A stretch of 26,336 nt of DNA, from IMG/VR virus record IMGVR_UViG_3300027797_000119, positions 1 through 26,336 of that record. One strand, 5' to 3'. Each line of letters begins with the position of its first letter. Positions within the stretch are counted from its first letter, which is position 1. Under the pieces are notes generated by a model. That model did not search any database and had not been told where the DNA came from. It saw only the letters and a list, made by a program, of their open reading frames with translations. Position numbers and translations under genes: made by a program. Source of the DNA: a virus. Of this stretch, positions 1 through 17,181 are shown piece by piece.

Positions 1-764
1 GTATGCGTCCGCAAAGTTTCAATGACGGCGTTACTGATCCCAACGAGGCTTCCACCTTTATTGGCGGCAAGATCCTAGCCCTAAGCCCAGGTGAAAAATT
101 AGAATCTTTTGTATCAAATCGCCCCAACCCGACTTTTAACGGATTCATGGAGCATCTAATTCGTGACTCTCTTGCGGGCATCTTGCCCTATGAGTTTGTC
201 CATGACCCGGCCAAGGCTGGCGGTGCTTCAATGCGCCTGATCGTTGCCAAGGCCGCTCGCAAGTTTGGACACTTCCAGTCCGTCCTGATGAATCGACTGC
301 TTACCCCTGTTTGGGGTTATGTCATGGGAGACGCTATCACCGCTGGTGCTGTGCCTTCTTGTGAGAATTGGAACAAGGTTCTATGGACTACCCCTAAGTC
401 TGTGACCGTAGACGCTGGCCGTGATGCCGCACAGAACCGCGCTGACATCGAATACGGCCTGAAGACGATTGGTGATAACTGCCTGGAAGAGGGCGAACAC
501 TTCTCCACGATGGTTCGCCGTCGTGCCGTTGAGGCTAAGATGTTCAAGGATATGGCTAAGGAATACGATGTTCCGCTCTGGATGCTTATCAAGCCTACCA
601 ATGTTGCCCTCCAGGACATTACTGGTGAAGAGCCAAAGGAAGAGGGTGAAGACATCGACGAGGACATGGACGAGAAGTCCAGCGCCGAAATCTCAAACGA
701 AGGCAGTAAGGTTGAAGAAGATGACGCCGAATCGGACGAACTTGAAGACCCACAGGGTAGATAA
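1..764 (+). CDS. Phage portal protein, C-terminal part (5' truncated)
   Basis: C-terminal fragment of a lambda gpB-like portal protein, the dodecameric ring at the head vertex through which DNA is packaged and ejected. The frame is open to the window edge, so the ATG at 3 is probably internal. The visible 253 residues fit the end of the lambda portal family: a segment around GEKLESFVSNRPNPTFNGF, the helical stretch with DSLAGILPYEF, and a putative wing/stem region with GGASMRLIVAKAARKF and LLTPVWGYVM. The last ~50 residues (about 205-253) are very rich in Asp and Glu, an acidic tail common in portals. It is followed by an S49 protease gene, the lambda B-C order. I am fairly sure of the family from motif style and synteny. 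What I cannot see is the N-terminal half. Confidence 0.82.
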   Translation, partial: MRPQSFNDGVTDPNEASTFIGGKILALSPGEKLESFVSNRPNPTFNGFMEHLIRDSLAGILPYEFVHDPAKAGGASMRLIVAKAARKFGHFQSVLMNRLLTPVWGYVMGDAITAGAVPSCENWNKVLWTTPKSVTVDAGRDAAQNRADIEYGLKTIGDNCLEEGEHFSTMVRRRAVEAKMFKDMAKEYDVPLWMLIKPTNVALQDITGEEPKEEGEDIDEDMDEKSSAEISNEGSKVEEDDAESDELEDPQGR

Positions 765-789
765 TTTTTCTTTTTATTTTTTATACCAT
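761..789 (+). promoter_or_regulatory. G-free, U-rich leader before the S49 protease
   Basis: The 29 nt between the portal stop and the protease ATG contain no G and are mostly T (runs of T5, T5 and T6). There is no Shine-Dalgarno sequence. A G-free U-rich leader cannot fold well and resembles leaders that load ribosomes through protein S1; that role is inference. A weak ACCC-ACA-GGGT hairpin lies just upstream, so partial termination at the T-rich tract is an alternative reading. Confidence 0.4.
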
Positions 790-1608
790 ATGCGACACCT
801 TATCAAAGCGATGAAGACCGGGCGACCCCTGATGATTCATCCTTCCATTGCAAAGTCACACATTGATCGCTTCCAGGCGCTGGAGATCACCACGGACACC
901 AATGCCTCCGAGGTAGCCGATATCCTCAAGATGATGTTCGGCGAACAGCCCAAGATGGAGATTGTTGGCAAGACCGCCATCATCCCGGTCAAGGGTGTCA
1001 TCGGGCGCGGCCTGTCCGATATCGAGAAAATGTGTAACTCCGTTGATGTGGATGATATCTCGGCCAACATCGATGAAGCCATTTCTAACCCAGCCGTTGG
1101 CAAGGTTGTCCTAGAGTTTGATTCTCCAGGTGGAAGCACCGAAGGTCTAGGCGAACTGGCCGAGAAGATCCGCACGATGCCAAAGCATTGCGAATCCTAT
1201 TGCGAGCGCTCCTGCCAGTCTGCCGCCTATTACCTAGGCTCCCAGGCGAAGCGCTTCAATATCACCAAGTCCGCTGAAGTAGGCTCCGTTGGGGTCTACA
1301 TGGCCTTCCCTGATGTGTCTGAAGCCTACGCAATGGACGGCGTCAAAATGGAGGTTATCAAGTCTGGCAAGTACAAGGCAATCGGCATGGAAGGCACTAG
1401 CCTCACCGACGATCAGCGCAAGTACCTCCAAGAAGATGTCAACGAGACCCACACGGAATTCAAGGATACGGTCAAATCTGTCCGAAAGTTCGTCAAAGAC
1501 GAGGACATGGAAGGCCAGTCTTTCGTTGGCAAAAAGGCCGCTGATAAGGGCTTTGTGACCGGGATCGTGAGTGGCATCGAGGATGTCCTCTCCGAGTACA
1601 TCGTTTGA
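790..1608 (+). CDS. S49 family serine peptidase (prohead protease)
   Basis: A 272-aa ClpP/SppA-fold protease, the lambda gpC type, expected to process scaffold and portal during prohead maturation. The open frame extends upstream into the portal gene, but the ATG at 790 directly after the portal stop is the sensible start. Visible S49 signatures: VVLEFDSPGGS around 107-116, SCQSAAYYLGS at 141-151 with candidate nucleophile Ser144, a VGSVGVY strand near 164-170, and IKSGKYK at 190-196 with candidate general base Lys196. The Ser-Lys spacing of 52 equals that of bacterial SppA (Ser147/Lys199 in B. subtilis). Unlike lambda C, no nested in-frame scaffold is needed, because a separate coiled-coil gene follows. 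Its TGA stop lies inside the conserved intergenic element at 1604-1618. Confidence 0.88.
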   Translation: MRHLIKAMKTGRPLMIHPSIAKSHIDRFQALEITTDTNASEVADILKMMFGEQPKMEIVGKTAIIPVKGVIGRGLSDIEKMCNSVDVDDISANIDEAISNPAVGKVVLEFDSPGGSTEGLGELAEKIRTMPKHCESYCERSCQSAAYYLGSQAKRFNITKSAEVGSVGVYMAFPDVSEAYAMDGVKMEVIKSGKYKAIGMEGTSLTDDQRKYLQEDVNETHTEFKDTVKSVRKFVKDEDMEGQSFVGKKAADKGFVTGIVSGIEDVLSEYIV

Positions 1609-1618
1609 CATCAGGCCA
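1604..1618 (+). promoter_or_regulatory. Conserved late-gene intergenic element, copy 1
   Basis: Matches TTTGAC-N3-AGGCCA exactly (N3 = ATC). It overlaps the stop codon of the protease gene and ends 15 nt before the ATG of the coiled-coil gene at 1634. The same 12 fixed bases with the same 3-nt gap recur at 3103 and 4859, and a degenerate copy lies at 11099. The function is unknown. TTGACA resembles a sigma-70 -35 box, but I see no convincing -10 box at normal spacing. Confidence 0.6.
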
Positions 1619-1633
1619 ACAGCAATAACTGCT

Positions 1634-2095
1634 ATGACCATCGAAGAACGCCTTAATTCGCTCAAGGAAGCCTTCACCGGGAAGGCCGCCGAAGCCGAAG
1701 CCTCGTCTGTCGAACTTACCGCGACCAAGGAATCCCTTGCCGCTAAGGACGCTGAACTCGCCGCTTCTGCCTCCAAGTTCTCTGAAGCCGTTAGCGCCAT
1801 CGAGAAGATGGCCGCTAAGGTTGTTGAACTGGAAGGCGCCCTCGCCGAGGCCGCCAAGAAGTACACCGCCCTGGAAGCCTCCTTCCAGACGGCTGGCAAG
1901 AAAGCCGCTTCCATCGCCGCCTCTGTTGGCGTTGATCCAGTTGAAGTCAGCCCGGTTGAAAACGCCGCTATTTCCAAGACCCCTGATGAAATCGCTCAGG
2001 AATGGGCGCTCCTCAAGAAGTCCGATCCCAAGGCCGCTCAGAAGTTCTACGACCTTAACAAGTCTGCGCTTCTCCAGGCCGCTGGCATTCGCTAA
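1634..2095 (+). CDS. Ala-rich coiled-coil protein in scaffold position
   Basis: A 153-aa protein, MTIEERL..., sitting between the prohead protease and the major capsid gene, where lambda has Nu3 and many phages have a scaffolding or capsid-assembly protein. Residues ~1-100 are Ala/Glu/Lys/Ser-rich with heptad-like spacing, predicting a long coiled coil. A Val/Pro linker (about 102-118) leads to a compact C-terminal helical end with DEIAQEWALLKKSDPKAAQ. Such a coiled coil plus short C-terminal coat-binding helix is typical of scaffolds, but it could also be a minor capsid protein. The ATG at 1634 is chosen because the frame upstream overlaps the protease gene and residues before it look unnatural. 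There is no Shine-Dalgarno sequence; the repeated intergenic element lies just upstream. Confidence 0.6.
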   Translation: MTIEERLNSLKEAFTGKAAEAEASSVELTATKESLAAKDAELAASASKFSEAVSAIEKMAAKVVELEGALAEAAKKYTALEASFQTAGKKAASIAASVGVDPVEVSPVENAAISKTPDEIAQEWALLKKSDPKAAQKFYDLNKSALLQAAGIR

Positions 2096-2127
2096 TCCCT
2101 CTCACCCTCAAACCCTAAAACACTAAT
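2092..2127 (+). promoter_or_regulatory. G-free leader before the major capsid gene
   Basis: This 36-nt stretch running up to the capsid ATG has no G at all. It is C/A-rich, with CCCTC/CCCTA repeats, and has no Shine-Dalgarno sequence. The capsid protein must be made in large amounts, so an unstructured leader that leaves the start codon accessible is a plausible SD-independent initiation signal. That interpretation is inference. Confidence 0.4.
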
Positions 2128-3027
2128 ATGTCTAACGCAATCGGAGGCTTGACCCTCCAGTTGGTGGCTGAAGAGTCCCTGCGGACGCTCGTCCCGCAAC
2201 TCCAGCCCCTCACCAAGATCGCGGTCACCGACTTCGGCGCCTATGTCGCTGAACGCGGTACCACGGTTCACACCCGCTACGCTGGCAAGTTCACGGCCGC
2301 TAATTACGCCCGCGCAACTGGCTTCGTTGAACAGGACGCCGTCTCGACGGATGTCCCGGTCACCCTCGTTGACCAGAAGCATGTAACCATCGCGTTCACC
2401 GACTACGAAGTCGCCACGCTCTCGATGGAACGCCTCCGTCGCCTCTTCATGGCTCCGATGGCTAACGCTGTCGTCAAGTCCCTGTTCGACCAGGTTCTCA
2501 CCAAGGTTGATACCTCCTTCGCCGACGGTTACGATGGCGCTCAGTCTGGATTCAACCGCATCGCGGTCTCCAACATCGCCAAGAGCCTGACCAAGGCTAA
2601 CCTCCCTCAGGAAGGTCGCTCGGCTCTTATCAGCCCCGATGCCTACCAGCAGTTGATCTCCGACCCGGTGATCGCCCAGGCGTTCTCCATCGGTACCTCT
2701 GAAGTCATCCGTGGCAACCGCCTCGGTATGATTCACGGCATCGACTTCTTCGAGTACAACGGCTTTGACGCCGCTGGCATCGAGGCTGGCCTCAATGGTG
2801 TTGTCTCCTGCAAGGAAGGTCTCGTTGTCGTGACCCGCGTCCCTGCCGCTCCCACGACTGGTGGTGGCGAACAGACGATCGTTACCGACCCGGACAGCCA
2901 GTTCTCGTATGCTCTGCGCTACTGGTACGACTGGTCGGCTGGTCTTCACAAACTGTCGGCCAACTGGCTCGTCGGTTCTGCGAAGGGCAACCCGGACGCG
3001 CTCCAGAAGATTTCCTTCACGGTCTAA
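2128..3027 (+). CDS. Major capsid protein
   Basis: A 299-aa protein that forms the icosahedral shell. Position and family features support the call: it follows portal, protease and scaffold candidate and ends at a strong terminator. The N-terminal part has the amphipathic SLRTLVPQLQPLTK segment. Then DQKHVTIAFTDYEVATLS (about residues 72-89) resembles the P22 gp5-like coat pattern in which a substrate-like strand precedes a conserved F-T/S-x-x-E/D motif. Next comes ISPDAYQQLISDPV (around 168-181), typical of HK97-fold coats. Codon use is strongly optimised, as expected for the most abundant protein. I cannot tell from sequence alone whether the family is P22-like or another HK97-fold branch. 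It is probably not itself cleaved, since it lacks a long delta domain. Confidence 0.82.
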   Translation: MSNAIGGLTLQLVAEESLRTLVPQLQPLTKIAVTDFGAYVAERGTTVHTRYAGKFTAANYARATGFVEQDAVSTDVPVTLVDQKHVTIAFTDYEVATLSMERLRRLFMAPMANAVVKSLFDQVLTKVDTSFADGYDGAQSGFNRIAVSNIAKSLTKANLPQEGRSALISPDAYQQLISDPVIAQAFSIGTSEVIRGNRLGMIHGIDFFEYNGFDAAGIEAGLNGVVSCKEGLVVVTRVPAAPTTGGGEQTIVTDPDSQFSYALRYWYDWSAGLHKLSANWLVGSAKGNPDALQKISFTV

Positions 3028-3033
3028 GTTTCA

Positions 3034-3054
3034 GAGGGGGAAAGTCTCCCCCTC
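3034..3054 (+). other. GC-rich hairpin after the capsid gene
   Basis: GAGGGGGA pairs with TCCCCCTC around a 5-nt loop, giving an 8-bp stem seven bases after the capsid stop codon. It has no T-tract. It sits just upstream of the real terminator and could protect the 3' end of the capsid mRNA from exonucleases (inference). Confidence 0.5.
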
Positions 3055-3069
3055 GCCGCGCCAATGCAG

Positions 3070-3105
3070 AGAGGCTCACCACACAAGTGGTGGGCCTCTT
3101 CTTTT
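3070..3105 (+). terminator. Rho-independent terminator after the capsid gene
   Basis: A 14-position stem: AGAGGC, a T-G wobble, and CACCAC pair across the loop ACAA with GTGGTG and GCCTCT, followed by TTCTTTT. This is a textbook intrinsic terminator. It would shorten a large share of transcripts after the capsid gene, raising the ratio of capsid mRNA to downstream tail mRNA. Its T-tract runs into the conserved element at 3103-3117. Confidence 0.78.
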
Positions 3106-3117
3106 GACCAGAGGCCA
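3103..3117 (+). promoter_or_regulatory. Conserved late-gene intergenic element, copy 2
   Basis: Exact TTTGAC-N3-AGGCCA (N3 = CAG). It begins in the T-tract of the capsid terminator and ends only 5 nt before the ATG at 3123. A terminator followed at once by this element could suggest a restart of transcription, but the very short distance to the ATG would then imply a near-leaderless mRNA. GAGG inside the element lies 8 nt before the ATG and could also act as a weak Shine-Dalgarno. Confidence 0.6.
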
Positions 3118-3122
3118 ACGGT

Positions 3123-3458
3123 ATGTCTATCTGGGATGAGTTCACGGCTGATGCCCAATCAATCCTTAATGAGATTGGTAAGGACATCACGATTAAGAAT
3201 GTCCCTGGTGGCACTCCTGTAGCGTTTAAGGCACAGGTTACCCAGCCTATGGTTCTCCAGGATATGGAGACTGGTGGCTTCCTTAATTCCACTACTTTTG
3301 AAGTGAAGGTTCTGCGTACCGTTGCGGCCAGCCATCCCGGCCTGTTTGCCTACGGAAACATCATCAACTACGATGGGCAGGACTACCGCATCGTGGCTAT
3401 CGCCAATCGTCCTCCGTCTGCTTGGCTTGTAGCCAAGGTTCAGACCAAGGAGCAATGA
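3123..3458 (+). CDS. Head-tail joining (head completion/stopper) protein
   Basis: A 111-aa beta-rich protein immediately downstream of the capsid gene, the slot of lambda FII and of SPP1-type stoppers, which close the filled head and offer the docking site for the tail. The sequence shows an N-terminal helix (SIWDEFTADAQSILNEIG) followed by alternating beta strands, including VKVLRTVAASHPGLFAYG and NIINYDGQDYRIVAIANRP. The last is a recurring pattern in phage attachment proteins (a glycine-turn strand pair near the C-terminus). The stop codon overlaps the next ATG (ATGA), so the two are translationally coupled. The assignment rests on size, secondary-structure pattern and synteny rather than an unmistakable motif. 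Confidence 0.65.
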   Translation: MSIWDEFTADAQSILNEIGKDITIKNVPGGTPVAFKAQVTQPMVLQDMETGGFLNSTTFEVKVLRTVAASHPGLFAYGNIINYDGQDYRIVAIANRPPSAWLVAKVQTKEQ

Positions 3459-4432
3459 TCACACAGTACGGTACGATTACGGTACGCAAAGGCGTAGTTA
3501 CCAACGAACAGCAATTGCGCCAGACCCTTGGCGCTTACTGCATCGTAATGGGTGGCAAGGTTGCCAATCTGCTAAAGAAGCAAGCCCGCCTATTCTGCGA
3601 CGATATGCTTGACTTCACTATGCCCTGGGAGGGAGGGATGGGGCATGATGGCCGTAGCGCTAGGGCTAGGCTCAATGGCGCTGACCGTGTTCAGTCACAG
3701 ATCAAGGGCATCTTCTTGCCCCTCAAGTTCGTTGGCGCCGGGGAGATCCTCCAGTATGGCAACGAAGGCGTCTTCTCTGCTTGGCTACGCGCCCGAAAGA
3801 AACTGTCCAATCCTATGCTCCCAAAGTGGCTCAAGGATGGGGACAATTTCCCCGGCCTTTGGACGAAGTTCCAGCAATGGGAGTTTGCCCAGCAGGAGGC
3901 GGCTATGAGTCCAGGTCTTGTCAAGTTGGACACCTTCAACAAGGGATCTGGCGTCATCAAGAGCATCCATGAGCGTGAACGAGGCGGCAATAACACCGAG
4001 GATTACTTCAAGAACATGAAGGCCGCATCCAAGTTCGGAACTCGCTATGTTGTGGACGATGATGGTAGCGCCGTGAAAGCCTATTCCAAGCGCGTGGAAG
4101 CCCATGTAGGCCGTTTGAAGGCCGGGTGGTACACCGCTGGCTCCCAACTCGGTAGACTCAAGAATGTGGGCTACTGGATCAGGGGTAACCAATGGAACAC
4201 AGGCACCCTTGTTAACCAACTGGGAAACCCTACCCGGCCTTCTGTTACTGTGGGTAACAAGGTTCAGGGACTGCATAGGGCTACCAGGGATGGGTACAAA
4301 CTAGCGATCAATTACCGCAATTACTCTATGCGTGAAGAAATTTACCAGAAACTGGTCAAAAACGGCAACGCCGATATGCTTTTCCATCTTGCCTCGCACC
4401 ACGGTATTGGTGGAGGATTCGATATCTCTTAA
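3455..4432 (+). CDS. Neck/minor tail protein in the gpZ position, long form
   Basis: A 325-aa protein starting at the ATGA overlap at 3455; AAGGAG lies just upstream, unusually close to the start. By order (after the stopper, before the tail terminator) it occupies the slot of lambda gpZ and HK97 gp10-like neck proteins. The segment RVEAHVGRLKAGWYTAGSQL (about 210-229) resembles the basic V-x-x-x-KAGW helix in that group. It is far longer than HK97 gp10 proteins (about 100-150 aa). The middle (residues ~95-190, with PKWLKDGDNFPGLWTKFQQW and a Gly/Asn-rich KGSGVIKSIHERERGGNN) matches nothing I recognise. The C-terminal GIGGGFDIS is Gly-rich. The structural role is likely; the exact role is uncertain. 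Confidence 0.5.
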   Translation: MITQYGTITVRKGVVTNEQQLRQTLGAYCIVMGGKVANLLKKQARLFCDDMLDFTMPWEGGMGHDGRSARARLNGADRVQSQIKGIFLPLKFVGAGEILQYGNEGVFSAWLRARKKLSNPMLPKWLKDGDNFPGLWTKFQQWEFAQQEAAMSPGLVKLDTFNKGSGVIKSIHERERGGNNTEDYFKNMKAASKFGTRYVVDDDGSAVKAYSKRVEAHVGRLKAGWYTAGSQLGRLKNVGYWIRGNQWNTGTLVNQLGNPTRPSVTVGNKVQGLHRATRDGYKLAINYRNYSMREEIYQKLVKNGNADMLFHLASHHGIGGGFDIS

Positions 4433-4863
4433 TGAGCGCCCTCATCCGATCCATTGTGGAGGACAAGATTTCCTCCTATTTATCCACTAATATCACCGAT
4501 ACTACGGTGGTAAAGGGCATCACGGATAGCCTCCGTTCCCTGCCTATGGTTGTTGTATATGCCTCCGAATCGTCTTCCCCTAGGGAACTTGGGGCAAGTC
4601 CGCTTGGGAACTACCATGTCAAGTTGGAGGTGTATATCTACTCTAGCGCCGACGATGACACCCTTGCTACCCACCGGGAGCGTGTGTCCAAGGTTCACGG
4701 CTTAATGTCCGACATTGTTGCCCTCAAGTCCCTTTGGGGCGCTGGTGAGGGTAAACTTTACTCCGCTTGGATCGAATCTGACGATGAGGGTATGCAGAGC
4801 CGAAATCACGGCAACAAGGTAACTTACACCCTTGTGGCCGTCCTCCCACCCAACCCAGTTTGA
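4432..4863 (+). CDS. Tail terminator (gpU-like) candidate
   Basis: A 143-aa protein beginning in a TAATG overlap with the preceding stop. Its layout fits tail terminators, which cap the growing tail tube and join it to the head: an N-terminal helix (SALIRSIVEDKISSYLS), a strand with LPMVVVYASES, then LGNYHVKLEVYIYSSADDD with a helix RERVSKVHGLMSDIVA, and a C-terminal strand pair (YSAWIESDDEG; HGNKVTYTLVAVLPP). The alternating strand-helix-strand with a long acidic turn is characteristic of the gpU/gp17 fold. Synteny (gpZ slot before, tail tube candidate after) supports it. The stop codon TGA is embedded in the conserved intergenic element at 4859. Confidence 0.6.
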   Translation: MSALIRSIVEDKISSYLSTNITDTTVVKGITDSLRSLPMVVVYASESSSPRELGASPLGNYHVKLEVYIYSSADDDTLATHRERVSKVHGLMSDIVALKSLWGAGEGKLYSAWIESDDEGMQSRNHGNKVTYTLVAVLPPNPV

Positions 4864-4873
4864 CATTAGGCCA
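4859..4873 (+). promoter_or_regulatory. Conserved late-gene intergenic element, copy 3
   Basis: Exact TTTGAC-N3-AGGCCA (N3 = ATT). Like copy 1 it contains the TGA stop of the preceding gene. It ends 18 nt before the ATG at 4892. A TATAAC sequence follows 12 nt after TTGACA, too close for a normal sigma-70 promoter but placed like the AATAAC after copy 1. Confidence 0.6.
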
Positions 4874-4891
4874 TTGGTATAACTTACCACT

Positions 4892-5224
4892 ATGGCTCTA
4901 CACGAATTCGGCGAAGCCCTTGTTTTTGGCCCTTACGACAGCGTCGTGGGTCTTGTTGTCCAGTCTGACTCCTGGACTGTCCGCTACGCCCTTGATGTTG
5001 AAGTCATGGACGAGCAGGGTCGCGTCATTACTGACCGCCTGGACGATGAGCGTAATGAAATTACCATCGAAGGCGTCATCAAGGTTACCGACGCAGTTCT
5101 TCCCGGCAATACGCTGACCTACGATAACTTGACTTGGATCGTCAAGGAAGTTACGGATCGCGGCTCCAACCAGGAGTACCGCAAACTCTCCGTCCGCGCG
5201 GTCAAGTACCAGGAGATCGCGTAA
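4892..5224 (+). CDS. Small beta-rich protein, tail tube candidate
   Basis: A 110-aa protein between the tail terminator candidate and the chaperone candidate, which is the place of the major tail (tube) protein in lambda-like gene orders. The sequence is almost entirely beta-strand-like: alternating hydrophobic residues in SVVGLVVQSDSWTVRYALDV, EITIEGVIKVTDAVLPGNTL and NLTWIVKEVTDRGS, with a C-terminal strand KLSVRAVKYQEIA. A beta-sandwich fits a tube subunit, but 110 residues is short for one (siphovirus tubes are usually 150 or more). It could instead be a second head-tail adaptor. It is preceded by the repeated intergenic element and has no Shine-Dalgarno. Function by synteny only. Confidence 0.4.
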   Translation: MALHEFGEALVFGPYDSVVGLVVQSDSWTVRYALDVEVMDEQGRVITDRLDDERNEITIEGVIKVTDAVLPGNTLTYDNLTWIVKEVTDRGSNQEYRKLSVRAVKYQEIA

Positions 5225-5225
5225 T

Positions 5226-5831
5226 ATGGAAGGCGGCATCGACAGCCGCTTCAACCAAGCCGTCAAGACTTCAATCCTAGAGGTTGAGGTCTGCGGCCGC
5301 GTTTTGAAGCCTATGTGCCTACGGCATAGGCTCATCTTGCAGGAGATTGAGTCACCCCTGCTGATCCCTGAGAAATCAGTCTCCCCTCAAGACCTCATCG
5401 TTGCCGCCCGCATCCTTTCCACTTACGACTTAAAGGAGATGCTCTCCGTTACAGCAACCAAGGCCGAAGCCGATGTATTCTTTAAACTGTTTCTTGATAA
5501 CGAAGAGTACAAACGGCAGATGGATAATATGTCCGAGTACATGAATATGCAGGACAATATGCCAATCATGTGGGACAGGGAGAAGACATCCTCAAGCCGT
5601 GGCGTCCCGGTTGTCCTAGCCTGTGTGACCAACCTAACTAGGAACGGCATTGGCTACGAGATGGCCTGGACGATGCCAGAAGCAGAAGCCATGTGGATGT
5701 ACCTAGCCAATGTTATCGCCGACGGCGGTGACATCAATATCCTCACACAAGAGGATTTAGACTCTATGAAACGCCTTGAGGCAATGGAAGAGAAGATCAA
5801 AGCCGCTAAGGAGAAGCGTAGCCGCCGATGA
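5226..5831 (+). CDS. Tail assembly chaperone candidate
   Basis: A 201-aa, mostly helical, soluble protein located immediately upstream of the tape measure gene, the universal place of tail assembly chaperones (lambda G/GT). It has an N-terminal strand pair (KTSILEVEVCGRVLKPMCLRH), a helical middle with many Met and Glu, and a highly charged C-terminal helix rich in Lys/Arg (KRLEAMEEKIKAAKEKRSRR). AGGAG lies 10 nt before the start, one of the few normal ribosome sites in the late region. I see no clear slippery heptamer producing a GT-like extension; the downstream gene starts at an ATGA overlap instead. The assignment rests on position and helical character. Confidence 0.45.
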   Translation: MEGGIDSRFNQAVKTSILEVEVCGRVLKPMCLRHRLILQEIESPLLIPEKSVSPQDLIVAARILSTYDLKEMLSVTATKAEADVFFKLFLDNEEYKRQMDNMSEYMNMQDNMPIMWDREKTSSSRGVPVVLACVTNLTRNGIGYEMAWTMPEAEAMWMYLANVIADGGDINILTQEDLDSMKRLEAMEEKIKAAKEKRSRR

Positions 5832-7291
5832 GTTCCGACGAAGTAAAAGTAAAGTTTGTCGCGGACACGACTGGCCTACAGAATGTCACCGTACCAAACC
5901 AGATCCCTGCGTCTGGCGGTGGCGCTAGTGGCGGCTCTGGATCTGGTGGTCGCGTTTCTGGCGGTACTCCTAGTGGCTCTGGTAACAACGGACAAACCCC
6001 ACCAAAGCGCCGGGATAGGGCTTCCTTCCCCTGGGAGCAAGGATGGGGGAATGAATTCAGCAAAGACATTACCGCTCAATTCTCTGGTATGCTATCTGGC
6101 ATCAATCTTGTTGGAGTGGCATGGGATGGAGCAAGGATGGCGGCAGAGAAGTATGTTGAGATGGTTAAATTGGGTGTAGAATATTCCCAGAAGATTGAAA
6201 AGGTTTCCCGCACTACTGGACTTTCAGCAGAAGAAATCCAGAAGTACGGTTACGCCGCCCAGATGTCTGGGGTTTCGTTTGAAACATTCGCAAATGCGAT
6301 GTCTAACGCCAACAAGGAACTTGGTAAACTTACCTTATACGGCGGCACAAGCATCATTGCCCTATCAAAACTTGGCATCAATGTAGACAGCGTAAAGAAC
6401 CACAGCGTAGGAGCCATCGATGTTCTGAAGAAGATGGCCGACGCCTACAAGAAACACGCCGAGACCGCCGAGATGGCCGCCCTGGGCAACCAGTTGTTCG
6501 GTGGATCATTCAAGGACATGATTCCTATGCTCCGCAATGGAAGCGCTGAAATCGAGCGTATTGCCGCCGCCGCACCTGTTGTAAATTCACAGACCATCTC
6601 TGCCTCTGCGGCACTTGGTCGATCTGGAACACAGATTGCTGAGACTGTTGGAGCAACATTGGCAGAAGACATCTCTGGATATAGCCGCGCTGAATCTATT
6701 TCAGCCGATAGGATGTCTGGCAGGGTTTCGTCTGGTGATGTCACGGCAAAGGAAGCAGTTGATAAACTGCTCCAACCAGCAAATCGCGGAATTCTTGCAA
6801 CCCTTACCAACTCCGCTTCAAGGTTTGGTGATTACGCAACAGCCTTTTTTTCACCAGGCAAAGCGCTAACAGACGAGGCAACTGGAACCAGCCTTGGCGC
6901 TGGAGCCGCTCGCTTTAACGCCGCAGAGGGCATCCGTGGCGCCGGGGAAGACACTAAGACAGTCCGTGATCGCTTCCTTGCTATGCGTGGTGGCAAGTTG
7001 GAAAATCTTTCTGAATCCGACAAGGCGATTATGAGCGCATTTGACGATAAACTGAAGGATGAAGGAAAGATGAGCCTTCAGGGTGGCGTCTTCCAGGCGG
7101 CGTCCAAGATGCAACAGGTTGGTGGCGGTGATGTACTTTCTGCCATTTCGCGTGTTGACTTGCAGGAAAAGATTGAGGGTAATACCCGGAGGATGGCTGA
7201 TGCTATGGACAACCTCCTTAACAAGAATCCTTTCGGTGGTGGCAACAACACACCTCCCCCTCCAGACACCAACGGCCCTCTAGCCAAATAA
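5828..7291 (+). CDS. Short tape measure protein
   Basis: A 487-aa protein whose central region matches tape-measure sequence style: YSQKIEKVSRTTGLSAEEIQ (about 119-138), then a G-V-S-F-E-T-F-A-N-A-M segment, ALSKLGINVDSVKN, and the pattern of a helix ending AALGNQLFGGSFKDMIPML (around 214-234). This pattern is shared by tape measures of many siphoviruses. Tape measures span the tail lumen and set its length; at roughly 1.5 angstrom per residue, 487 aa would imply a tail of about 70 nm, a family rule of thumb. Residues ~27-62 form an extreme Gly/Ser/Pro linker, and the C-terminus is Gly/Asn/Pro-rich. No clear transmembrane segment or hydrolase domain is visible. It starts in an ATGA overlap with the chaperone candidate. 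Confidence 0.65.
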   Translation: MSSDEVKVKFVADTTGLQNVTVPNQIPASGGGASGGSGSGGRVSGGTPSGSGNNGQTPPKRRDRASFPWEQGWGNEFSKDITAQFSGMLSGINLVGVAWDGARMAAEKYVEMVKLGVEYSQKIEKVSRTTGLSAEEIQKYGYAAQMSGVSFETFANAMSNANKELGKLTLYGGTSIIALSKLGINVDSVKNHSVGAIDVLKKMADAYKKHAETAEMAALGNQLFGGSFKDMIPMLRNGSAEIERIAAAAPVVNSQTISASAALGRSGTQIAETVGATLAEDISGYSRAESISADRMSGRVSSGDVTAKEAVDKLLQPANRGILATLTNSASRFGDYATAFFSPGKALTDEATGTSLGAGAARFNAAEGIRGAGEDTKTVRDRFLAMRGGKLENLSESDKAIMSAFDDKLKDEGKMSLQGGVFQAASKMQQVGGGDVLSAISRVDLQEKIEGNTRRMADAMDNLLNKNPFGGGNNTPPPPDTNGPLAK

Positions 7292-7293
7292 CC

Positions 7294-8223
7294 ATGTCAT
7301 TCCCGATCTTCCAGCCCAGCGCGATTACCTTCAAGGAGTTTGGAGAGAAACTCGCTTCCACCTATGTGATGGATAAGAACTGGACTATATCGCACGACGG
7401 CTTCGGCCTCAAGACGATGCAGTTGAAGTTCACCGCAGACTCGGACAAGTCCTACGATATCGCCACCGATTTCAAGCGCGGTGACTCACCGCCGATCACC
7501 AATATGGAGAACATGACGCTCCATAAGGCGGTTGCATCAACGAACAATGGCATCGTTACCGTTACGGCAGAATACTGTGGTATTGACGGATCTTCCGACT
7601 CTACGGTCACGCAAGTCCAGGTATCCAGCGCCACATCACAGGAAGCCATTGAGACGCACCCTAACTTCACCAAGGTTCAATGCGCCGCAATTGGTAACGG
7701 AATCCCCCTCGCTGGCCCTGCGGCCTATATCTACGCGAACGAAAGCGATAAGTCAAAGAACCCAAACAAGGCTCACTTCTCACTTGTTACTACTAACGCA
7801 ACACAGGTACAACAGTATCAGTTCGTCGGGTTCCTGCCCTCTCGCGATCTATCAGAAGATGTTAACCTAAAGGCTGGCATTAAGGCTTACTTTAAACCGG
7901 GCGTAACTCTGCGTTGCCTTGCATACACCAACAGCGCAGAAACGGCTCAAAAGACCGTGCTTCGCGTTGGATGGGCTAACCTTGGCAACATTGGAGCCAT
8001 CGTTCTCCCGGCTCCATACAACAGCCTACTTGATAATTTTGACTCGGAACTACCGCTCACATTGCCAAACGGCATTGAGCGAAATCGAACCTACCTATGC
8101 ACAAGTGCATCCGTTGAAGTGTTCGGTGGCCTCTACAAGGTCCAGGCTGATCTTATGATGTCTGGTATTATTGGATGGGATACGGACATCTATCCTTTCG
8201 ACGAAACTAGCCCTCACGACTAA
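7294..8223 (+). CDS. Distal tail structural protein (Dit position)
   Basis: A 309-aa protein directly downstream of the tape measure, where distal tail or baseplate hub proteins lie. It is beta-rich throughout: LKTMQLKFTADSDKSYDIAT near the N-terminus, NGIVTVTAEYCGIDGSSDST, a central QYQFVGFLPSRDLSED, and a C-terminal EVFGGLYKVQADLMMSGIIG. No enzymatic motif is present. The start is three bases after the previous stop without a Shine-Dalgarno, so translation is probably by re-initiation; the stop overlaps the next ATG (TAATG). Distal tail protein is the best guess from order; I do not recognise the family, and a tail tip subunit is equally possible. Confidence 0.4.
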   Translation: MSFPIFQPSAITFKEFGEKLASTYVMDKNWTISHDGFGLKTMQLKFTADSDKSYDIATDFKRGDSPPITNMENMTLHKAVASTNNGIVTVTAEYCGIDGSSDSTVTQVQVSSATSQEAIETHPNFTKVQCAAIGNGIPLAGPAAYIYANESDKSKNPNKAHFSLVTTNATQVQQYQFVGFLPSRDLSEDVNLKAGIKAYFKPGVTLRCLAYTNSAETAQKTVLRVGWANLGNIGAIVLPAPYNSLLDNFDSELPLTLPNGIERNRTYLCTSASVEVFGGLYKVQADLMMSGIIGWDTDIYPFDETSPHD

Positions 8224-10619
8224 TGGGACTAGAAGGCTTTTCAAACAACGCCTCTGGGGGTATGTCCCCTGGAGATCACCTGTACGCAAAGACTTTCAAC
8301 AAGTTGGCGGCATCGGCTGACAAGGCGCAAGTTGGCCCATCAGATGGGGTGTTATTTACCTCTAACAACGGCGGCGTTGGTATGTACATCCCACAGGGCG
8401 TACAGGACAATCAAGGTGGCATACTTCAGCAGTTCCAGATTGTAGTTGAACCTTATGCCGTAGGAACCAACACAACTGGATTTTCAATCATCCGGGTTGT
8501 AAAGGGCGAGGTAGTTTGGTGTCCTAAACTCCTTCAAGAGGAATCACCAATCCCGGTTCCACTACCCCCTGCTTGCACCAGCCAGACAACCATTGAGAAC
8601 TGGTTTGCGCTCCCAACCTTCCCAATCATCGACGATGAGAATGCCATCTTCATCGGTGATGGTGGCATCCGTGTTCCAAAGGTTTCTGGTATCCCTATTG
8701 GTATTTTTATCTTTAAGGCAACCAATCTCCCATTTGATCTAGACCCAATCATCGTAGCCGTACCAGACTATGTACCTACTTGCCCAGTTACATTCCCTGG
8801 AGCGCCTCCTGTCCCCCTTGCCACTTGGGAAGTTGTAAAGGTTGGTAGCGTTATCTATGTAGCGCCAGACCCAGAGGCTGACCCGCCTATTGAAGGCGGG
8901 TGGGAGATCACACAGAACTTCATCGGCTCAATGACTCTGCCTGGAGATGGTGGTGGAACAAGCACACCTCAAAGCGTCCTCCCGGCGCAACTAGGAGACG
9001 GTTCTGGTCGGACGCTCAACGCCTCTCCGTTCCAATGCTTTATTGAAAATATTAACGGATTCCGCTATCTTCGCATAGCAACAGGTACGGTGTCCTACAG
9101 TTCAAGCAATATGCCCCTTATCAGCGGTGGGGCATTTACGCACACCAAACAGGCTTGGTTTAAGAAGATTCAAATCTGCCCAAGTGGTTCTCGTACCAGT
9201 TACGAAGAAATGTTTCCCAATCCATACTTTGACCCAGACCCAACATTTTCAAATCAGACTATGGAAGAAGGTGGTGGCTATCGTCTTTTTGATACTAACG
9301 ATCCTGTTATCCTCTACGCCTTTAAATGGGATGTGGATGTTGGTGTGCCACCCTTCAGCGAAAGTTCAGTAGTAAATACAGGTCTACCAACCCTAGGTTT
9401 GTTTGCCCAAAGCAATCCAGGTGACATTAACAAGGTCGAGGTTGACCCCGGCCCCTCTATCTACGAGCAGACTATGAATATCCAGAAGATGGCTGGATAC
9501 GATCACTTGCCAGCGCCATTCCCAGATAGCGATTGGGGGCATTGTCATACTACTTGGCTTAACCCTCGTAAGATTGGTTATAACTACAAGGCGATTGCTA
9601 CCATAATCCCGGCTGGGTCTGGAGTGTTTGAGTGTTATGTAGCGTATGAACAGCCTGGAGTTCCAGGGGTGTGTAACACCATTCAGAATATCAATCTACT
9701 GGGAGAGGCTATGGCTGGTGCAATTGTTTTCTCATACAATGGAATACCGTCACCAATTCCATTCTCAGTTATCTGGGATTACACATCAACCTCTTCTATT
9801 GGCCCAGATGCGCTAAACCTCTTTCGATCGCTCAACGCCATCCCAGAACTAACCGGGAATGTACAGGTATCTGGTAATGACGGATTTTTCTATGTAACAT
9901 TTGTCAATGCCTTACAGGGACTCCCAATCGACCTTATCACCGCTAACACAAGTGGAGTTGTTAGGTATAATTACAGGTTTGAACTTATCCAGTACCACAC
10001 CGGGAACCTTGATCTAACCTCTCCAATGCAGATGGGTATGACCCAGTTGATGAATGAGGAAGACCTTACGGAAGAAGATGACCCTTACAACAAGAACAAG
10101 AACAGTAGCCCTGCTTGGGATATGATTGTCAACCGTGACGATTGCAAAGCCTGTAAGGACTTCTCTGGCGATGTCACGACAGATGGTGTGTTCAATATGA
10201 CTGGAGCCGTAGCCAATAATCCAGACTTCACCATTATCGGTGGTTGTACCGGGTCTGTCTGTGAGCATCCGTTCCAGGTCAACATTGACTCCGTTGAAGA
10301 AGGAACCACCTACTACTCCGTATGCTCTGGTACGGTTAATAACAAGATCCCGGATGACATCGATGCGGCCTTCACGATGGCAGACGGAGACTTGGTATGG
10401 ATTCGTTGCGAGGCTGAACAGTCTGGTTCTTATGAATATCCTAAGACTGTTACCGTTCAACACGGAACAACTATGCCAGTAGATACCAATACCTATGGCT
10501 ACATCAAGGTTGCCAAACTTGTTGGAACGACGATTGAACAGTATGTCACAGGTTCCCTCTGGACTGACCGCATCAAACTTGGAACCAATACGGCGAACTA
10601 TTACTTCGCACGAGTCTGA
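8223..10619 (+). CDS. Large tail protein with repeated beta modules
   Basis: A 798-aa virion protein of the tail tip or fibre region. The N-terminus (residues 14-60) has SPGDHLYAKTFNKLAASADK followed by a Gly/Asn-rich turn, typical of phage tail attachment proteins. Three degenerate modules recur at about 70-101, 269-292 and 683-706: a start with FQ(I/C/V), a beta strand, a Gly turn, a second strand and a final G-(T/E)-V. The middle is Pro-rich. The C-terminal 110 residues end in KLGTNTANYYFARV, a beta end. DDCKACKDFS (about 637-646) and VCSGTV near the C-terminus contain Cys residues. No hydrolase or pectate-lyase repeat is recognisable. The start overlaps the preceding stop, and the next gene starts in TGATG. 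Confidence 0.5.
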   Translation: MGLEGFSNNASGGMSPGDHLYAKTFNKLAASADKAQVGPSDGVLFTSNNGGVGMYIPQGVQDNQGGILQQFQIVVEPYAVGTNTTGFSIIRVVKGEVVWCPKLLQEESPIPVPLPPACTSQTTIENWFALPTFPIIDDENAIFIGDGGIRVPKVSGIPIGIFIFKATNLPFDLDPIIVAVPDYVPTCPVTFPGAPPVPLATWEVVKVGSVIYVAPDPEADPPIEGGWEITQNFIGSMTLPGDGGGTSTPQSVLPAQLGDGSGRTLNASPFQCFIENINGFRYLRIATGTVSYSSSNMPLISGGAFTHTKQAWFKKIQICPSGSRTSYEEMFPNPYFDPDPTFSNQTMEEGGGYRLFDTNDPVILYAFKWDVDVGVPPFSESSVVNTGLPTLGLFAQSNPGDINKVEVDPGPSIYEQTMNIQKMAGYDHLPAPFPDSDWGHCHTTWLNPRKIGYNYKAIATIIPAGSGVFECYVAYEQPGVPGVCNTIQNINLLGEAMAGAIVFSYNGIPSPIPFSVIWDYTSTSSIGPDALNLFRSLNAIPELTGNVQVSGNDGFFYVTFVNALQGLPIDLITANTSGVVRYNYRFELIQYHTGNLDLTSPMQMGMTQLMNEEDLTEEDDPYNKNKNSSPAWDMIVNRDDCKACKDFSGDVTTDGVFNMTGAVANNPDFTIIGGCTGSVCEHPFQVNIDSVEEGTTYYSVCSGTVNNKIPDDIDAAFTMADGDLVWIRCEAEQSGSYEYPKTVTVQHGTTMPVDTNTYGYIKVAKLVGTTIEQYVTGSLWTDRIKLGTNTANYYFARV

Positions 10620-11092
10620 TGAGTTATATCATCGGGACAGAGGAATATATAAGCACTTGGGGTGCTTTTAGGTCTGTGCTGTTCACGAATGGCACACAAA
10701 TCTTCCTTTACCCACCAGCGGGGTTTGTCCTTACTACTCATAACAAAGTTTTCCCTCCTGCACCTGGAGAGAGTCCATATACACCTCCTTATTTTACGCC
10801 AGACAGCGGAACACTTGTAAGACAAGACCCCAATTCTTTTACCCCATATATTGAGTTTGAGGCTAATCCATACGAACCTATGCAACCACCATCTTGGAGT
10901 GGCTACATCACCATCTATTTAGACCAAAGGGACTTCAAATATATGGTAGGCAAGACCCTAACTGCGGCGGCCACATCTGGAACCATTGATGCTAGTGCCG
11001 AACCCCCTTCAAGTCAGTACCTTTATACTAGCGTAGGGCAGGATTGGGGCTTCGGACTTACTGGCGTAGAGAAGTTCAAAGTGGTGACTTGA
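10619..11092 (+). CDS. Hypothetical virion protein between tail genes
   Basis: A 157-aa protein that I do not recognise. It starts in a TGATG overlap with the 798-aa tail gene and is followed by the fibre gene, so a structural or fibre-accessory role is likely. The sequence is rich in aromatic residues and Pro (LYPPAGFVLTTHN; PPAPGESPYTPPYFTPDSG; NPYEPMQPPSWSGY), with few charged residues and a strand-like YITIYLDQRDFKYMVG. There is no signal peptide and no transmembrane segment. The composition resembles small beta proteins decorating tails rather than an enzyme or a chaperone. Confidence 0.55.
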   Translation: MSYIIGTEEYISTWGAFRSVLFTNGTQIFLYPPAGFVLTTHNKVFPPAPGESPYTPPYFTPDSGTLVRQDPNSFTPYIEFEANPYEPMQPPSWSGYITIYLDQRDFKYMVGKTLTAAATSGTIDASAEPPSSQYLYTSVGQDWGFGLTGVEKFKVVT

Positions 11093-11110
11093 CCCCCTTT
11101 TGACAGGGGG
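11093..11110 (+). other. CCCCCT/AGGGGG hairpin between tail genes
   Basis: A perfect 6-bp stem (CCCCCT with AGGGGG) and a 6-nt loop immediately after the stop of the 157-aa gene, with no T-tract following. It is not a standard terminator. Its right arm lies inside the degenerate copy of the intergenic element, so folding would hide part of that element. Confidence 0.5.
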
Positions 11111-11113
11111 CAA
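11099..11113 (+). promoter_or_regulatory. Intergenic element, degenerate copy 4
   Basis: TTTGAC-AGG-GGGCAA matches the TTTGAC-N3-AGGCCA consensus at 10 of 12 fixed positions and lies 11 nt before the fibre ATG. Being in the only sizeable gap of this part of the late region, it fits the same pattern as the three exact copies, but alone it would not be convincing. Confidence 0.4.
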
Positions 11114-11124
11114 GGCTTAGGACT

Positions 11125-13665
11125 ATGGCTATCAATACCTACCGCTTTTGGATGGCAACCGATGCCAACCGCCTTCTTGCGAACCAGAACGCATTCATCC
11201 AGGCGTCCGCGCCTTCTTTCTATCAGGGCAATGTTGCTCAACTTGAACTTCACATCGTTGCGTCCGCTGGCGTAGGTACTGCCCCTGTTGAGGTTCCTTT
11301 CCCGGCTGGCGCCGCGATCAGCGTAGCCGTAGGCGATACCAACACCTACCCTACTGGTGGTACTTGGTCTTTGATGGTTGATACTACGGAAACAGATTCT
11401 GTACCCTACAACGCAACTACCTCACAGGTGTCCGTTGCCCTGAACGCCCTTACGGAAGTATCGTCCGAAGGTGGCTTAACCGTCTCTAAGACTGGCGACG
11501 GCTACTCGATCACCTGGAACACTTATGGCCTCAAACCTTCCATCGGCATCGGCTCCGATACCCTCACCCCCTCCTCCTACGAGTCCATCAGCCTCGTCCA
11601 AACTGGTAGTGCCGAACATAGGCAGATTGTTTTTGTTGAACTGCGCCAAAATCCGATTGCTCTAGGTGTAGTCTGGACTGCCCTTCCCACCCCATCTGTT
11701 AGCGTATCCGAAGTCCAGGCTTGGAATGGCACCAACAGTATCTGGCGGGTGACCATCAACCCCCAGCCTAGGGCCGGGACGATGACCATCTCCTACGGTA
11801 GCAAGACGGCCATCGTGGCCTACAACGCAAGCACCTCTTCAATCGCCAGCCTGTTGTCTCCAGCCCAAGTATTTTCCACCGGGCAGTACCAATGGGACAT
11901 CGCCATTGCCGAGGACAGCGTCCTTACTGCGGTTGGAAGTCTTGTTGGTTACAACGGCTTTTCTGGATCTATCAACTTCGCCACGGCAGAGTGCCACCAG
12001 TTCCTCGCTGGCGCTGAACGCAAGTCTACCGTACTTGAGGTTTCAATCAGCCTAGACGGCAAGCGGTACACGCTGATCCAGACGCCTTGCAATGTCTTTG
12101 CTGATGTTGTTTCCGACGGCGTACTCGTCCCGCTACCCCTTGGTACGGCTATGTCCGAACAGGTTGCCAATGCTCGCTTCGTGCGCCGCGATGTAGACCA
12201 AAACCCGGATAGCATCACGCAGGATATGATTTGGCAGAACCTCGGTGTCGATACGCTCGGTTCCGATGTTGTTGGCGCACTTAACCTAGCGGACTCTCCT
12301 TCGGCGGCCAATCCGTTTGCTACGATTTACGACCTCGCTGGCCTTGGAGCCACTTGGGGCAACATCACCGGGACGCTCTCTGACCAGACTGATCTCCAGT
12401 TAGCCCTAGACAACAAGTACGATGCCAGCAATCCGTCTAACTTTATCCAGGAGGCCAATGTCGATGGGAACCTCTATGGTCGTATGAACGGTATGTGGGA
12501 GGTTGTCCCAAGCCTTACTGGATATGCAACGGAGTCTTGGGTTACTTCGCAGGGTTATCTCGGCTCAACTGGCGGGACTGTAACAGACGGTAGTATTGCC
12601 CTACAAAGCACATCAAACACTAATTATGCTTATCTAAACGAAGGTAGTATTTTCTTCTCTCAGACACACAACATATCTGGGGAAGGTTGTCAGTATGGTG
12701 TCAGCGGAGTCCGTATTTGGAATGACCAACTGCAAGAAGGCGGGTTCTCAGTATATGGACTAAAGTTCTTTGACGGAACCACTCAGACTACTGCGGCCAC
12801 TTCGTTCGATCCTACTGGATACGCTACGGAGTCGTGGGTTCAGTCCCAGGGCTATCTCACTTCTGTTCCACCGCCCGCTTTAACTGGCCTTACCAGCGAT
12901 ATCAGTTGGGACAACTACTCCAATACTGGCCGATTTTTAATTACGGGTGGGAGTAGTCCCGATGGAATGTTTTTCTCTGCTCGTTTTAATTTTGATACTT
13001 TTGTTCCTAATCAGCCAAGCACCGGCGATTTCTGGTTCAACGGTACGGATTTTTTCTATCAAGGCGGCGGGGTAAAGACGATTGCCTCGCAAACCTGGGT
13101 TACCAGCCAAGGTTACGCTACCACAGGCCAACTTTCTGGATACGCCCTGCTTGCTGGTGCTACCTTTACTGGGAAGGTCAACACGACAGTCACGGCCACG
13201 ACCGCGCCGATTAACATCGGATCGCAACTTACTGCACCGACTACTACTGTCGCTGGAGATGTTTGGATTGGTGCTAATATCAATTACAAGTCTTGGGATG
13301 GTATCACAAAAGCCGTAGCCAACACCAACACGACAAACCAGTTCACCCAAGGGCAAGCGATTACGGTGAACTCTGCGGTCAACGCATTCCGCATCAACCA
13401 GCAAGGCACAGGCCCAGCGTTGGTTGTTGAGGACAGCGTATCGCCAGACGCTACGCCATTCGTCATCGATGCGAACGGCAAGGTTGGCGTAGGCGTCGCC
13501 CCGGACGCTACTGCGGCCATCAAGGTTGATGCCAACGGCATCTCGTTCAACGGACTGGTGTTCAACCCGACGGCTACCGCCGCACATACTGGAGGCTCAG
13601 ACACCCTAGACCTCCTAGTCACCATCAACGGAACCAACTACCGTCTCGGTCTTCGCCCCGCTTAA
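11125..13665 (+). CDS. Tail fibre / receptor-binding protein
   Basis: An 846-aa fibre. Residues ~79-133 and ~217-287 are two copies of a beta module with the well-known order: G-T-(W/M)-x-(L/I), then a short strand, (P/A)YNA(T/S)TSxx, a helix, and a later strand (YSITW; YQWDIA). Residues 300-345 carry a short domain with LEVSISLDGKRYTLIQTP. From ~466 onwards come three copies of the fibre repeat E/T-(S/T)-WV-(T/Q)-SQGY at about 466, 565 and 655, typical of trimeric fibres. The C-terminus (VDANGISFNGLVFNPT... NGTNYRLGLRPA) is a beta tip probably contacting the host. The start at 11125 has no strong Shine-Dalgarno. The next gene begins 3 nt after its stop. Confidence 0.78.
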   Translation: MAINTYRFWMATDANRLLANQNAFIQASAPSFYQGNVAQLELHIVASAGVGTAPVEVPFPAGAAISVAVGDTNTYPTGGTWSLMVDTTETDSVPYNATTSQVSVALNALTEVSSEGGLTVSKTGDGYSITWNTYGLKPSIGIGSDTLTPSSYESISLVQTGSAEHRQIVFVELRQNPIALGVVWTALPTPSVSVSEVQAWNGTNSIWRVTINPQPRAGTMTISYGSKTAIVAYNASTSSIASLLSPAQVFSTGQYQWDIAIAEDSVLTAVGSLVGYNGFSGSINFATAECHQFLAGAERKSTVLEVSISLDGKRYTLIQTPCNVFADVVSDGVLVPLPLGTAMSEQVANARFVRRDVDQNPDSITQDMIWQNLGVDTLGSDVVGALNLADSPSAANPFATIYDLAGLGATWGNITGTLSDQTDLQLALDNKYDASNPSNFIQEANVDGNLYGRMNGMWEVVPSLTGYATESWVTSQGYLGSTGGTVTDGSIALQSTSNTNYAYLNEGSIFFSQTHNISGEGCQYGVSGVRIWNDQLQEGGFSVYGLKFFDGTTQTTAATSFDPTGYATESWVQSQGYLTSVPPPALTGLTSDISWDNYSNTGRFLITGGSSPDGMFFSARFNFDTFVPNQPSTGDFWFNGTDFFYQGGGVKTIASQTWVTSQGYATTGQLSGYALLAGATFTGKVNTTVTATTAPINIGSQLTAPTTTVAGDVWIGANINYKSWDGITKAVANTNTTNQFTQGQAITVNSAVNAFRINQQGTGPALVVEDSVSPDATPFVIDANGKVGVGVAPDATAAIKVDANGISFNGLVFNPTATAAHTGGSDTLDLLVTINGTNYRLGLRPA
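12520..13127 (+). repeat. Three dispersed repeats within the fibre gene
   Basis: Copies at about 12520-12560, 12817-12857 and 13085-13127 encode versions of GYATESWVTSQGYL. The first two are also close in nucleotide sequence (GGATAYGCWACGGAGTCKTGGG). They flank unrelated segments, so recombination between copies could exchange or delete fibre segments. The protein-level repeat is a known fibre feature; the recombination idea is inference. Confidence 0.65.
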
Positions 13666-13668
13666 TTT

Positions 13669-13797
13669 ATGATCCTCGCGCTCATCTCCCTGGTCATCGG
13701 CTTCATCGGTGGCTTTATTGCTGGCGTCAAAAACGCCGACAGTTCCAAACTCTCCAAGAGCAAAGAACTCCTGGATGCCCTCAAGGGCAAGAAGTAA
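13669..13797 (+). CDS. 42-aa single-helix membrane peptide
   Basis: A short gene starting 3 nt after the fibre stop and ending 4 nt before the lipoprotein ATG. The peptide has a clear hydrophobic helix at residues 1-20 (ILALISLVIGFIGGFIAGV) followed by a polar, Lys-rich tail with DSSKLSKSKELLDALKGKK. The helix contains three Gly-rich turns of the G-x-x-x-G kind. A single membrane helix with a basic tail is predicted to put the tail in the cytoplasm. Its place at the head of the lysis cassette suggests a lysis accessory, pinholin-like peptide or antiholin; no family is recognised. The tight fit between neighbours and good codon use argue that it is real. Confidence 0.6.
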   Translation: MILALISLVIGFIGGFIAGVKNADSSKLSKSKELLDALKGKK

Positions 13798-13801
13798 TCC
13801 C

Positions 13802-14512
13802 ATGTGGCGCACCCTTCCAGTTGTCCTGCTGGTTGGGTGCGCTACGACTTCTGATCTCCCCAAGCAACCCGACGCCCCTACTAACGAGGGCATCGTTGCC
13901 ACGGTTGGCAAGGAGTGGGATACGGCCGATCAGAAGGTGGCCGCTTCTATCTCCGTAGCCCGCGAGAACTCCACCAAGCCAGAAGTGGTCAAGGCTGAGA
14001 CCAGCGTTGCCCTTTCCTATCTCCCGGTTCCCAAGCCAGAGGAACTAGCGCTTGCCCGCCAGCGGGCTACCAAGGCCGACCAGAAGGACTACGCCCAGGC
14101 TGAAGCCTTTGGGAAGAAACTCCTCACCAAGATAGACGCCGACTGGGCTAAGGTTCAGGCAGACTCTGCCGAGGCCAAGCGGGTCTCTGGACTGAAGGAC
14201 AAGCGCATCGAGGAATTAACGCAGGAGGTCGTCCGCGTTAAACAGGAAGCCAGTAATAACATCTGGACGCTGACAGGTGCGGGCCTCGCCGTGATCGGTG
14301 GCCTAGCCTGTGCCTTTGCCTCCCCCCGCATCGGTATCCCCATCCTTCTGGCTGGAGCCTTCTGCGGCGCCATTCCCTTTATCATCGATTCCCCTTACTT
14401 CGCTTACATTGCTGGTGGTACGCTCCTCGCCGTCGCTGGCCTGGGCATCTACTGGCTCTGGGATAAAGTTAGGGACTCGGTCAATAACGATGTCCCCCCC
14501 TCCCCCCAGTAA
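13802..14512 (+). CDS. Lipoprotein with C-terminal membrane helices, spanin-like
   Basis: A 236-aa protein beginning MWRTLPVVLLVGCATT: a very short signal with a canonical lipobox L-V-G-C, modified Cys13 and Ala at +2, which would direct it to the outer membrane under the E. coli Lol rule. Residues ~80-150 are charged and predicted helical/coiled coil (EELALARQRATKADQKDY; LKDKRIEELTQEVVRVKQ). Then come three membrane helices at about 154-173, 177-195 and 199-220, and a short Pro-rich tail. A lipoprotein end plus an inner-membrane end joined by a periplasmic coil is the design of a unimolecular spanin (T1 gp11 type), which fuses the two membranes in the last step of lysis. Known u-spanins have a single C-terminal helix, so three is unusual. 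Neighbouring holin genes support a lysis role. Confidence 0.6.
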   Translation: MWRTLPVVLLVGCATTSDLPKQPDAPTNEGIVATVGKEWDTADQKVAASISVARENSTKPEVVKAETSVALSYLPVPKPEELALARQRATKADQKDYAQAEAFGKKLLTKIDADWAKVQADSAEAKRVSGLKDKRIEELTQEVVRVKQEASNNIWTLTGAGLAVIGGLACAFASPRIGIPILLAGAFCGAIPFIIDSPYFAYIAGGTLLAVAGLGIYWLWDKVRDSVNNDVPPSPQ

Positions 14513-15165: not shown

Positions 15166-15189
15166 CGCCTTGGCGGTACCTTTTTGTCA
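15166..15189. other. Convergent gene junction
   Basis: Only 24 bp separate the stop of the plus-strand late genes and the stop of the minus-strand early genes. CGCC-TT-GGCG followed by GTACCTTTTTG could be a weak terminator for the plus strand, and AGGT upstream could extend the stem. I see no convincing terminator for the minus strand. Confidence 0.3.
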
Positions 15190-17175: not shown

Positions 17176-17181
17176 TGTGGT

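Follow-up and report, generated by a model that had tools for sequence, protein, structure and literature searches.

A start-linked repeat before the late genes of an aquatic phage family, proposed to act as a compact late promoter

Why do several late genes of a single phage begin just after the same short sequence? The question arose in the window, by which we mean the whole stretch of DNA analyzed, 26,336 nt of a tailed phage (IMG/VR record IMGVR_UViG_3300027797_000119). An earlier note on this DNA had reported the repeat TTTGAC-N3-AGGCCA in three exact copies starting at 1604, 3103, and 4859 and a relaxed copy at 11099, and all four are indeed present on the plus strand, the last with 2 mismatches. 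No other copy with 0 or 1 mismatch occurs on either strand of the window. The spacers between element and ATG measure 15, 5, 18, and 11 nt, exactly as given, and the copies at 1604 and 4859 enclose the TGA of the gene before them. Under a first-order Markov model of the window, 0.005 exact copies are expected by chance, against 3 observed. The features are listed in Table 1.

Table 1. Features of the window around the repeated element (element positions numbered as in the text)
Feature	Coordinates	Strand	Remarks
S49 head-maturation protease	790..1608	+	Precedes the copy at 1604
Late element 1, TTTGACATCAGGCCAACAGCA	1604..1624	+	Before scaffold; A of position 20 at 1624
Scaffold-like gene	1634..2095	+	Named by position before the MCP gene; downstream of element 1
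Major capsid protein (MCP)	2128..3027	+	Preceding 32-nt gap lacks the element
Terminator-like hairpin and U tract	3070..3107	+	After the MCP gene, runs into element 2; stem covariation
Late element 2, TTTGACCAGAGGCCAACGGTA	3103..3123	+	Before head completion; A of position 20 is the A of ATG
Head-completion candidate	3123..3458	+	Downstream of element 2; weak Phage_attach match (Pfam, E 4e-4)
Late element 3, TTTGACATTAGGCCATTGGTA	4859..4879	+	Before the tail-tube candidate
Tail-tube candidate (small tail protein)	4892..5224	+	Downstream of element 3; named by position only
Late element 4, TTTGACAGGGGGCAAGGCTTA	11099..11119	+	Before the fiber; refined family consensus with 0 mismatches
Tail fiber	11125..13665	+	Downstream of element 4

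Rightward, the window carries a portal fragment, the S49 protease, the scaffold-like gene, MCP, head and tail genes, and the fiber; the replication genes run leftward. Within that leftward block lies an SLT-type transglycosylase (25585-26067, minus strand). By eye, a 531-amino-acid ORF (17366-18961, minus strand) resembles a DNA cytosine methyltransferase. The fiber gene holds two imperfect 46-nt repeats (12516-12561 and 12813-12858) that are 83% alike, and a short inverted repeat at 4874-4891 stands directly before an ATG; such repeats also occur at tube sites and at late sites of Verrucomicrobia phage P8625 (L127, NC_029047.1). P8625 is the closest isolate, with an MCP identity of 28.6%. A search by MCP for relatives in bacterial genomes gave none, so the host is inferred solely from P8625; a verrucomicrobium is probable but not certain.

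We then considered whether the element is kept in related phages, drawing on 80 relatives by MCP among viral contigs and on 27 others that an alignment search added. These contigs come from uncultivated phages and are mostly fragments; they make up an aquatic phage family distantly related to P8625. Most have the element before the same genes. About 90 related contigs contain 306 element sites, all on the late strand, at five recurrent places: before the connector, scaffold, head-completion, tail-tube, and fiber or tail genes. None of the 306 classified sites falls outside these five classes, where the sole criterion for the tail class was a distance of over 5.5 kb downstream of MCP. The refined pattern matches 49 times in 11 long records; 44 of these matches stand before the five late starts, and none of the sites is at an early gene. 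The fifth copy, before the connector gene, lies upstream of what the window covers; it is seen in a contig (L004) that matches window bases 1-13024 with 99.94% identity over its own bases 4959-17982. A scan of all viral contigs with GTTTGACATYAGGCCA returned 30 contigs, of which only IMGVR_UViG_3300000756_000063, a near-identical sister of the window, was recognized as belonging to the family. The earlier note had named copies scattered within genes, or loss in relatives that keep the flanking genes, as grounds for giving the element up; relatives retain it ahead of the same genes and it is absent elsewhere, and these tests come out in its favor. The observation is thus confirmed and stronger than first reported.

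From 157 distinct sites we obtained the refined consensus (T/C)TTGAC-N4-(G/C)GC-N-A-N4-(C/T)A, or YTTGAC-N4-SGC-N-A-N4-YA, about 20 bp, in which TTGAC occupies positions 1 to 5. The form first described is exact in the window, but relatives conserve neither its 3-nt gap nor the first A of AGGCCA; the element is also longer than that form and reaches position 20. Since the search pattern itself demanded TTGAC, SGC, and A14, conservation is freely measured only in the remaining columns: position 20 is A in 84% of the sites, position 19 is a pyrimidine in 87%, and position 6 is A in 48%. When homologous gaps were read without requiring the pattern, TTGAC was found in nearly all, with TGGAC or TTAAC in a few lineages. 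The conserved blocks (positions 1 to 5, 10 to 14, and 19 to 20) are spaced about one helical turn apart, which would fit a protein bound to one face of the DNA.

The variable positions of the element change in concert. Lineages have their own versions, common to their sites, for example, CTTGACATAAGGCCA, TTTGACTCTAGGCTA, and CTTGACTGAAGGCGATA. In 78 nonredundant genomes, we compared the identity between sites of the same genome with a label-shuffled null. This identity was 0.714 at position 0 (null, 0.418; sd, 0.023), 0.388 at positions 6 to 9 (null, 0.292; sd, 0.011), and 0.531 at positions 10, 13, and 15 to 18 (null, 0.330; sd, 0.013), giving z values of 8 to 15 against a permutation that ignores kinship among the genomes. 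The flanks, which serve as a control for relatedness and cover it only in part, as the null has no tree, show hardly any concerted change (z of about 1.5): 0.268 versus 0.258 (sd, 0.006) at positions -12 to -3 and 0.258 versus 0.249 (sd, 0.007) at positions 24 to 35. Because the variable positions are concerted and the flanks nearly are not, a common trans factor appears to read all copies; the simplest cause would be one shared trans-acting reader coevolving with its sites. The copies are alike within each genome, as would also be the case for a neutral repeat spread by recent duplication or gene conversion. However, this likeness ends at the edges of the element, and the element retains its five places even as the MCPs diverge to about 60% identity. 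Such conservation at homologous places speaks against neutrality, and we consider this origin extremely improbable.

A candidate for the reader is encoded directly upstream of terS, ahead of the five element sites and on the late strand: a protein of 160 to 190 amino acids with a C-terminal helix-turn-helix (HTH), detected at 51 family loci with sequence at its position; in L004 it lies at 769-1254. Its library matches are generic only (best, phrog_517, E 4e-6). In 34 genomes, distances between HTH proteins follow those between elements with a rho of 0.805, the highest of 11 proteins, in a comparison that left early proteins out and in which other late proteins correlate as well. The partial correlation is 0.478 for the HTH protein and 0.316 for the next, MCP; it is 0.473 for the HTH domain and 0.254 for the N-terminal part. 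The HTH protein ranks first in 72% of bootstraps, another protein in 28%. These correlations make it a candidate reader of the element. A fold search with its model (pLDDT 70) gave no matches at an E value of 0.001 or better; the recurrent weak matches, to sigma region 4 and LysR-type HTHs, are no evidence of kinship. One 32.5-kb contig (L057) has a drifted element, yet no HTH homologue was found in it. An 83-amino-acid early protein resembling a winged HTH (18928-19179, minus strand), whose relatives occur in seven further long genomes, is possibly a second regulator or reader.

A small HTH protein and asymmetric sites in short intergenic gaps recall the stoperators of L5-type phages, whose size and layout resemble those of our protein and element: each is asymmetric, 13 bp long, and placed in a short intergenic space, with its orientation tied to transcription, and a monomeric 183-residue repressor reads it (PMC9283540). 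By analogy, the phage HTH protein would block or time elongation into the late genes. We think this unlikely. The annotation of the window and of the relatives read, which is all this point draws on, contains no recognized integrase or repressor; P8625 is lytic (PMC4642752); and the sites stand solely at late gene starts.

Does the element act in DNA or in RNA? All sites are on the sense strand, 4 to 21 nt before an ATG, and the genes of the window phage mostly lack Shine-Dalgarno sequences. UUGAC-N4-SGCnA-N4-YA could then be a translation-start or processing site, cleaved at YA, for example, and bound by a phage protein or RNA, that raises five cistrons of one long late mRNA. The start-associated motifs of cluster K mycobacteriophages have been proposed to act in translation (PMC3203893). 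Against this, the element is missing from the gaps before the MCP and protease genes and so does not serve as a general ribosome site. Inspection by eye showed no secondary structure shared by the sites, and the other strand of the window has no antisense copy of the motif with 0 or 1 mismatch. Moreover, YA is fixed at position 20 while the ATG shifts: the ATG begins anywhere from position 19 to position 36, at 19 or 20 in 33 of the 157 sites and earlier in none, and YA is retained where the ATG is more distant. This is as expected for a transcription start at position 20. We leave the RNA-level reading a modest chance.

A further feature precedes the head-completion copy. Directly before it, 35 of 36 distinct sites have a strong hairpin followed by a U tract (median, -25.5 kcal/mol). 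At the other classes, hairpins are found in 0 of 51 tube, 2 of 33 tail, 7 of 55 scaffold, and 13 of 26 connector sites, those of the last three being weak. All these counts come from folding each sequence separately; an RNAalifold run on the terminator alignment was misregistered. Given a terminator-like hairpin at this place, the genes downstream need a restart of transcription or read-through. In T7, the terminator after the capsid gene is read through, which the RNA-level reading could also invoke; the hairpin therefore supports a promoter but does not prove one.

If the element is a promoter, which polymerase would use it? Its TTGAC matches the -35 box of host sigma-70 promoters, and many tube sites bear TATAAT-like boxes. 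The -35 TTGACA of sigma-70 is thus present, but a -10 box at a spacing of 16 to 18 nt with a start upstream of the gene is not: in agreement with the earlier note, which saw no -10 box at normal spacing, the family has no -10 signal at positions 24 to 29. For copies with the ATG at position 20, a start at about position 36 would fall inside the gene, which excludes the usual sigma-70 layout. A sigma-70 promoter scan did not rise above shuffled sequences. In most lineages of the wider P8625 clade, the ATG is at positions 35 to 37, as for leaderless sigma-70 promoters. Even so, a canonical sigma-70 promoter seems very unlikely to us. Searches of 20 records found no sigma region 2 (PF04542); matches below the cutoff seem, by their position, to sit on the terS-type HTH gene. 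T7-type RNA polymerase (PF00940) gave 0 matches in the same number of records, and since it matched no control genome either, this negative result carries little weight.

Late genes of P8625 relatives likewise follow a TTGACA, whose distance to the ATG is fixed in each lineage. The ATG is exactly at position 20 in 5 of 6 late genes of L179, a remote lineage; at position 35 in L172 to L176 and L182 to L183; and at position 37 in P8625, L156, and L181, together with a GTATCC/GGATAC inverted repeat. Such fixed distances would fit a set 5′ end. The late-gene sites of P8625 thus share TTGAC at a fixed distance before late starts with our element; they differ from it in the position of the ATG, in the inverted repeat, and in lacking the SGCnA block, and no HTH homologue was found in P8625-clade contigs. 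The annotated TTG start of P8625 gp13, at 9620, is the beginning of its own late element; translation more likely begins at the in-frame ATG at 9656.

Of the three roles raised in the earlier note (late promoter, processing site, and translation-control site), the late promoter now fits best; from the sequence comparisons we infer this transcriptional role, the site of initiation, and the HTH protein's part as reader. With slightly better than even confidence, we propose that the element serves as a late promoter specific to this family, about 20 bp in length, that opens five nested late units, with a phage factor recruiting host RNA polymerase. TTGAC would lie at -19 to -15 and SGCnA at -10 to -6, with YA as initiator and the conserved A of position 20 as +1. 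The units would comprise connector-portal-protease, scaffold-MCP, and the genes from head completion onward, from the tail tube onward, and from the fiber onward; their transcripts would be leaderless or short-leader mRNAs. Host RNA polymerase would be brought to the element most likely by the HTH protein encoded upstream of terS. Counting against a promoter is the lack of a -10 box at the usual spacing, and we know of no polymerase that TTGAC at -19 would fit. More tentatively, and with the chances against it, this could be a new class of compact late promoters starting at or just before the ATG, in which a small terS-linked HTH protein redirects host RNA polymerase and each lineage has its own promoter-factor pair.

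How phages without their own RNA polymerase switch on late genes is known for only a handful of models. About 90 contigs with up to five copies each amount to a natural mutagenesis series, which, together with a named candidate reader, makes late-gene control in these phages directly testable. T7 has several nested late promoters and one terminator after the capsid gene, and both features, nested promoters as proposed here and a terminator-like hairpin, recur in our phages. The anatomy of the element would fit a T7-type promoter, a contiguous site of about 20 bp that ends at the start point, if transcription began at position 20 as predicted; unlike in T7, no T7-type RNA polymerase gene was detected, in searches whose controls also gave no match. 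Like the element, L5 stoperators are asymmetric sites between genes whose reader is a small HTH protein, in our case a candidate, but they are repressor sites of temperate phages, with more than 20 copies across the genome. The earlier note knew of no element of this form; that is true of the sequence, but phages are known to carry intergenic repeats next to gene starts, which occur in cluster K mycobacteriophages and several Microbacterium phage clusters, where their function was left unexplained (PMC3203893, PMC7302621). The SAS and ESAS of cluster K and Microbacterium cluster EF are likewise short, asymmetric repeats in one orientation just before starts, can hold the upstream stop codon, and in the case of ESAS vary in consensus by subcluster (PMC3203893, PMC7302621). 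Indeed, our element is, like SAS, a conserved repeat within a few nucleotides of starts and in one orientation. However, SAS have the Shine-Dalgarno core AGGAG, which the consensus of the element lacks; cluster K SAS sit in the nonstructural half of the genome, whereas the five classes here are genes of the late structural region; and the TTGAC/SGCnA/YA anatomy with five copies is the element's own. The Microbacterium EC 18-bp and EI repeats also lie in small intergenic gaps, the EC repeat being asymmetric, in one orientation, and 21 to 30 bp before starts and the EI repeat having five copies; they differ in sequence and belong to unrelated phages, and EC copies are mostly among nonstructural genes or in the gap from terminase to portal. 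Through the covariation described here, a start-associated repeat, of a sort unexplained in other phages, gains a first candidate for its trans factor. The kind of start-linked repeat is thus already known, and it is in anatomy, gene set, and phage group that this element differs.
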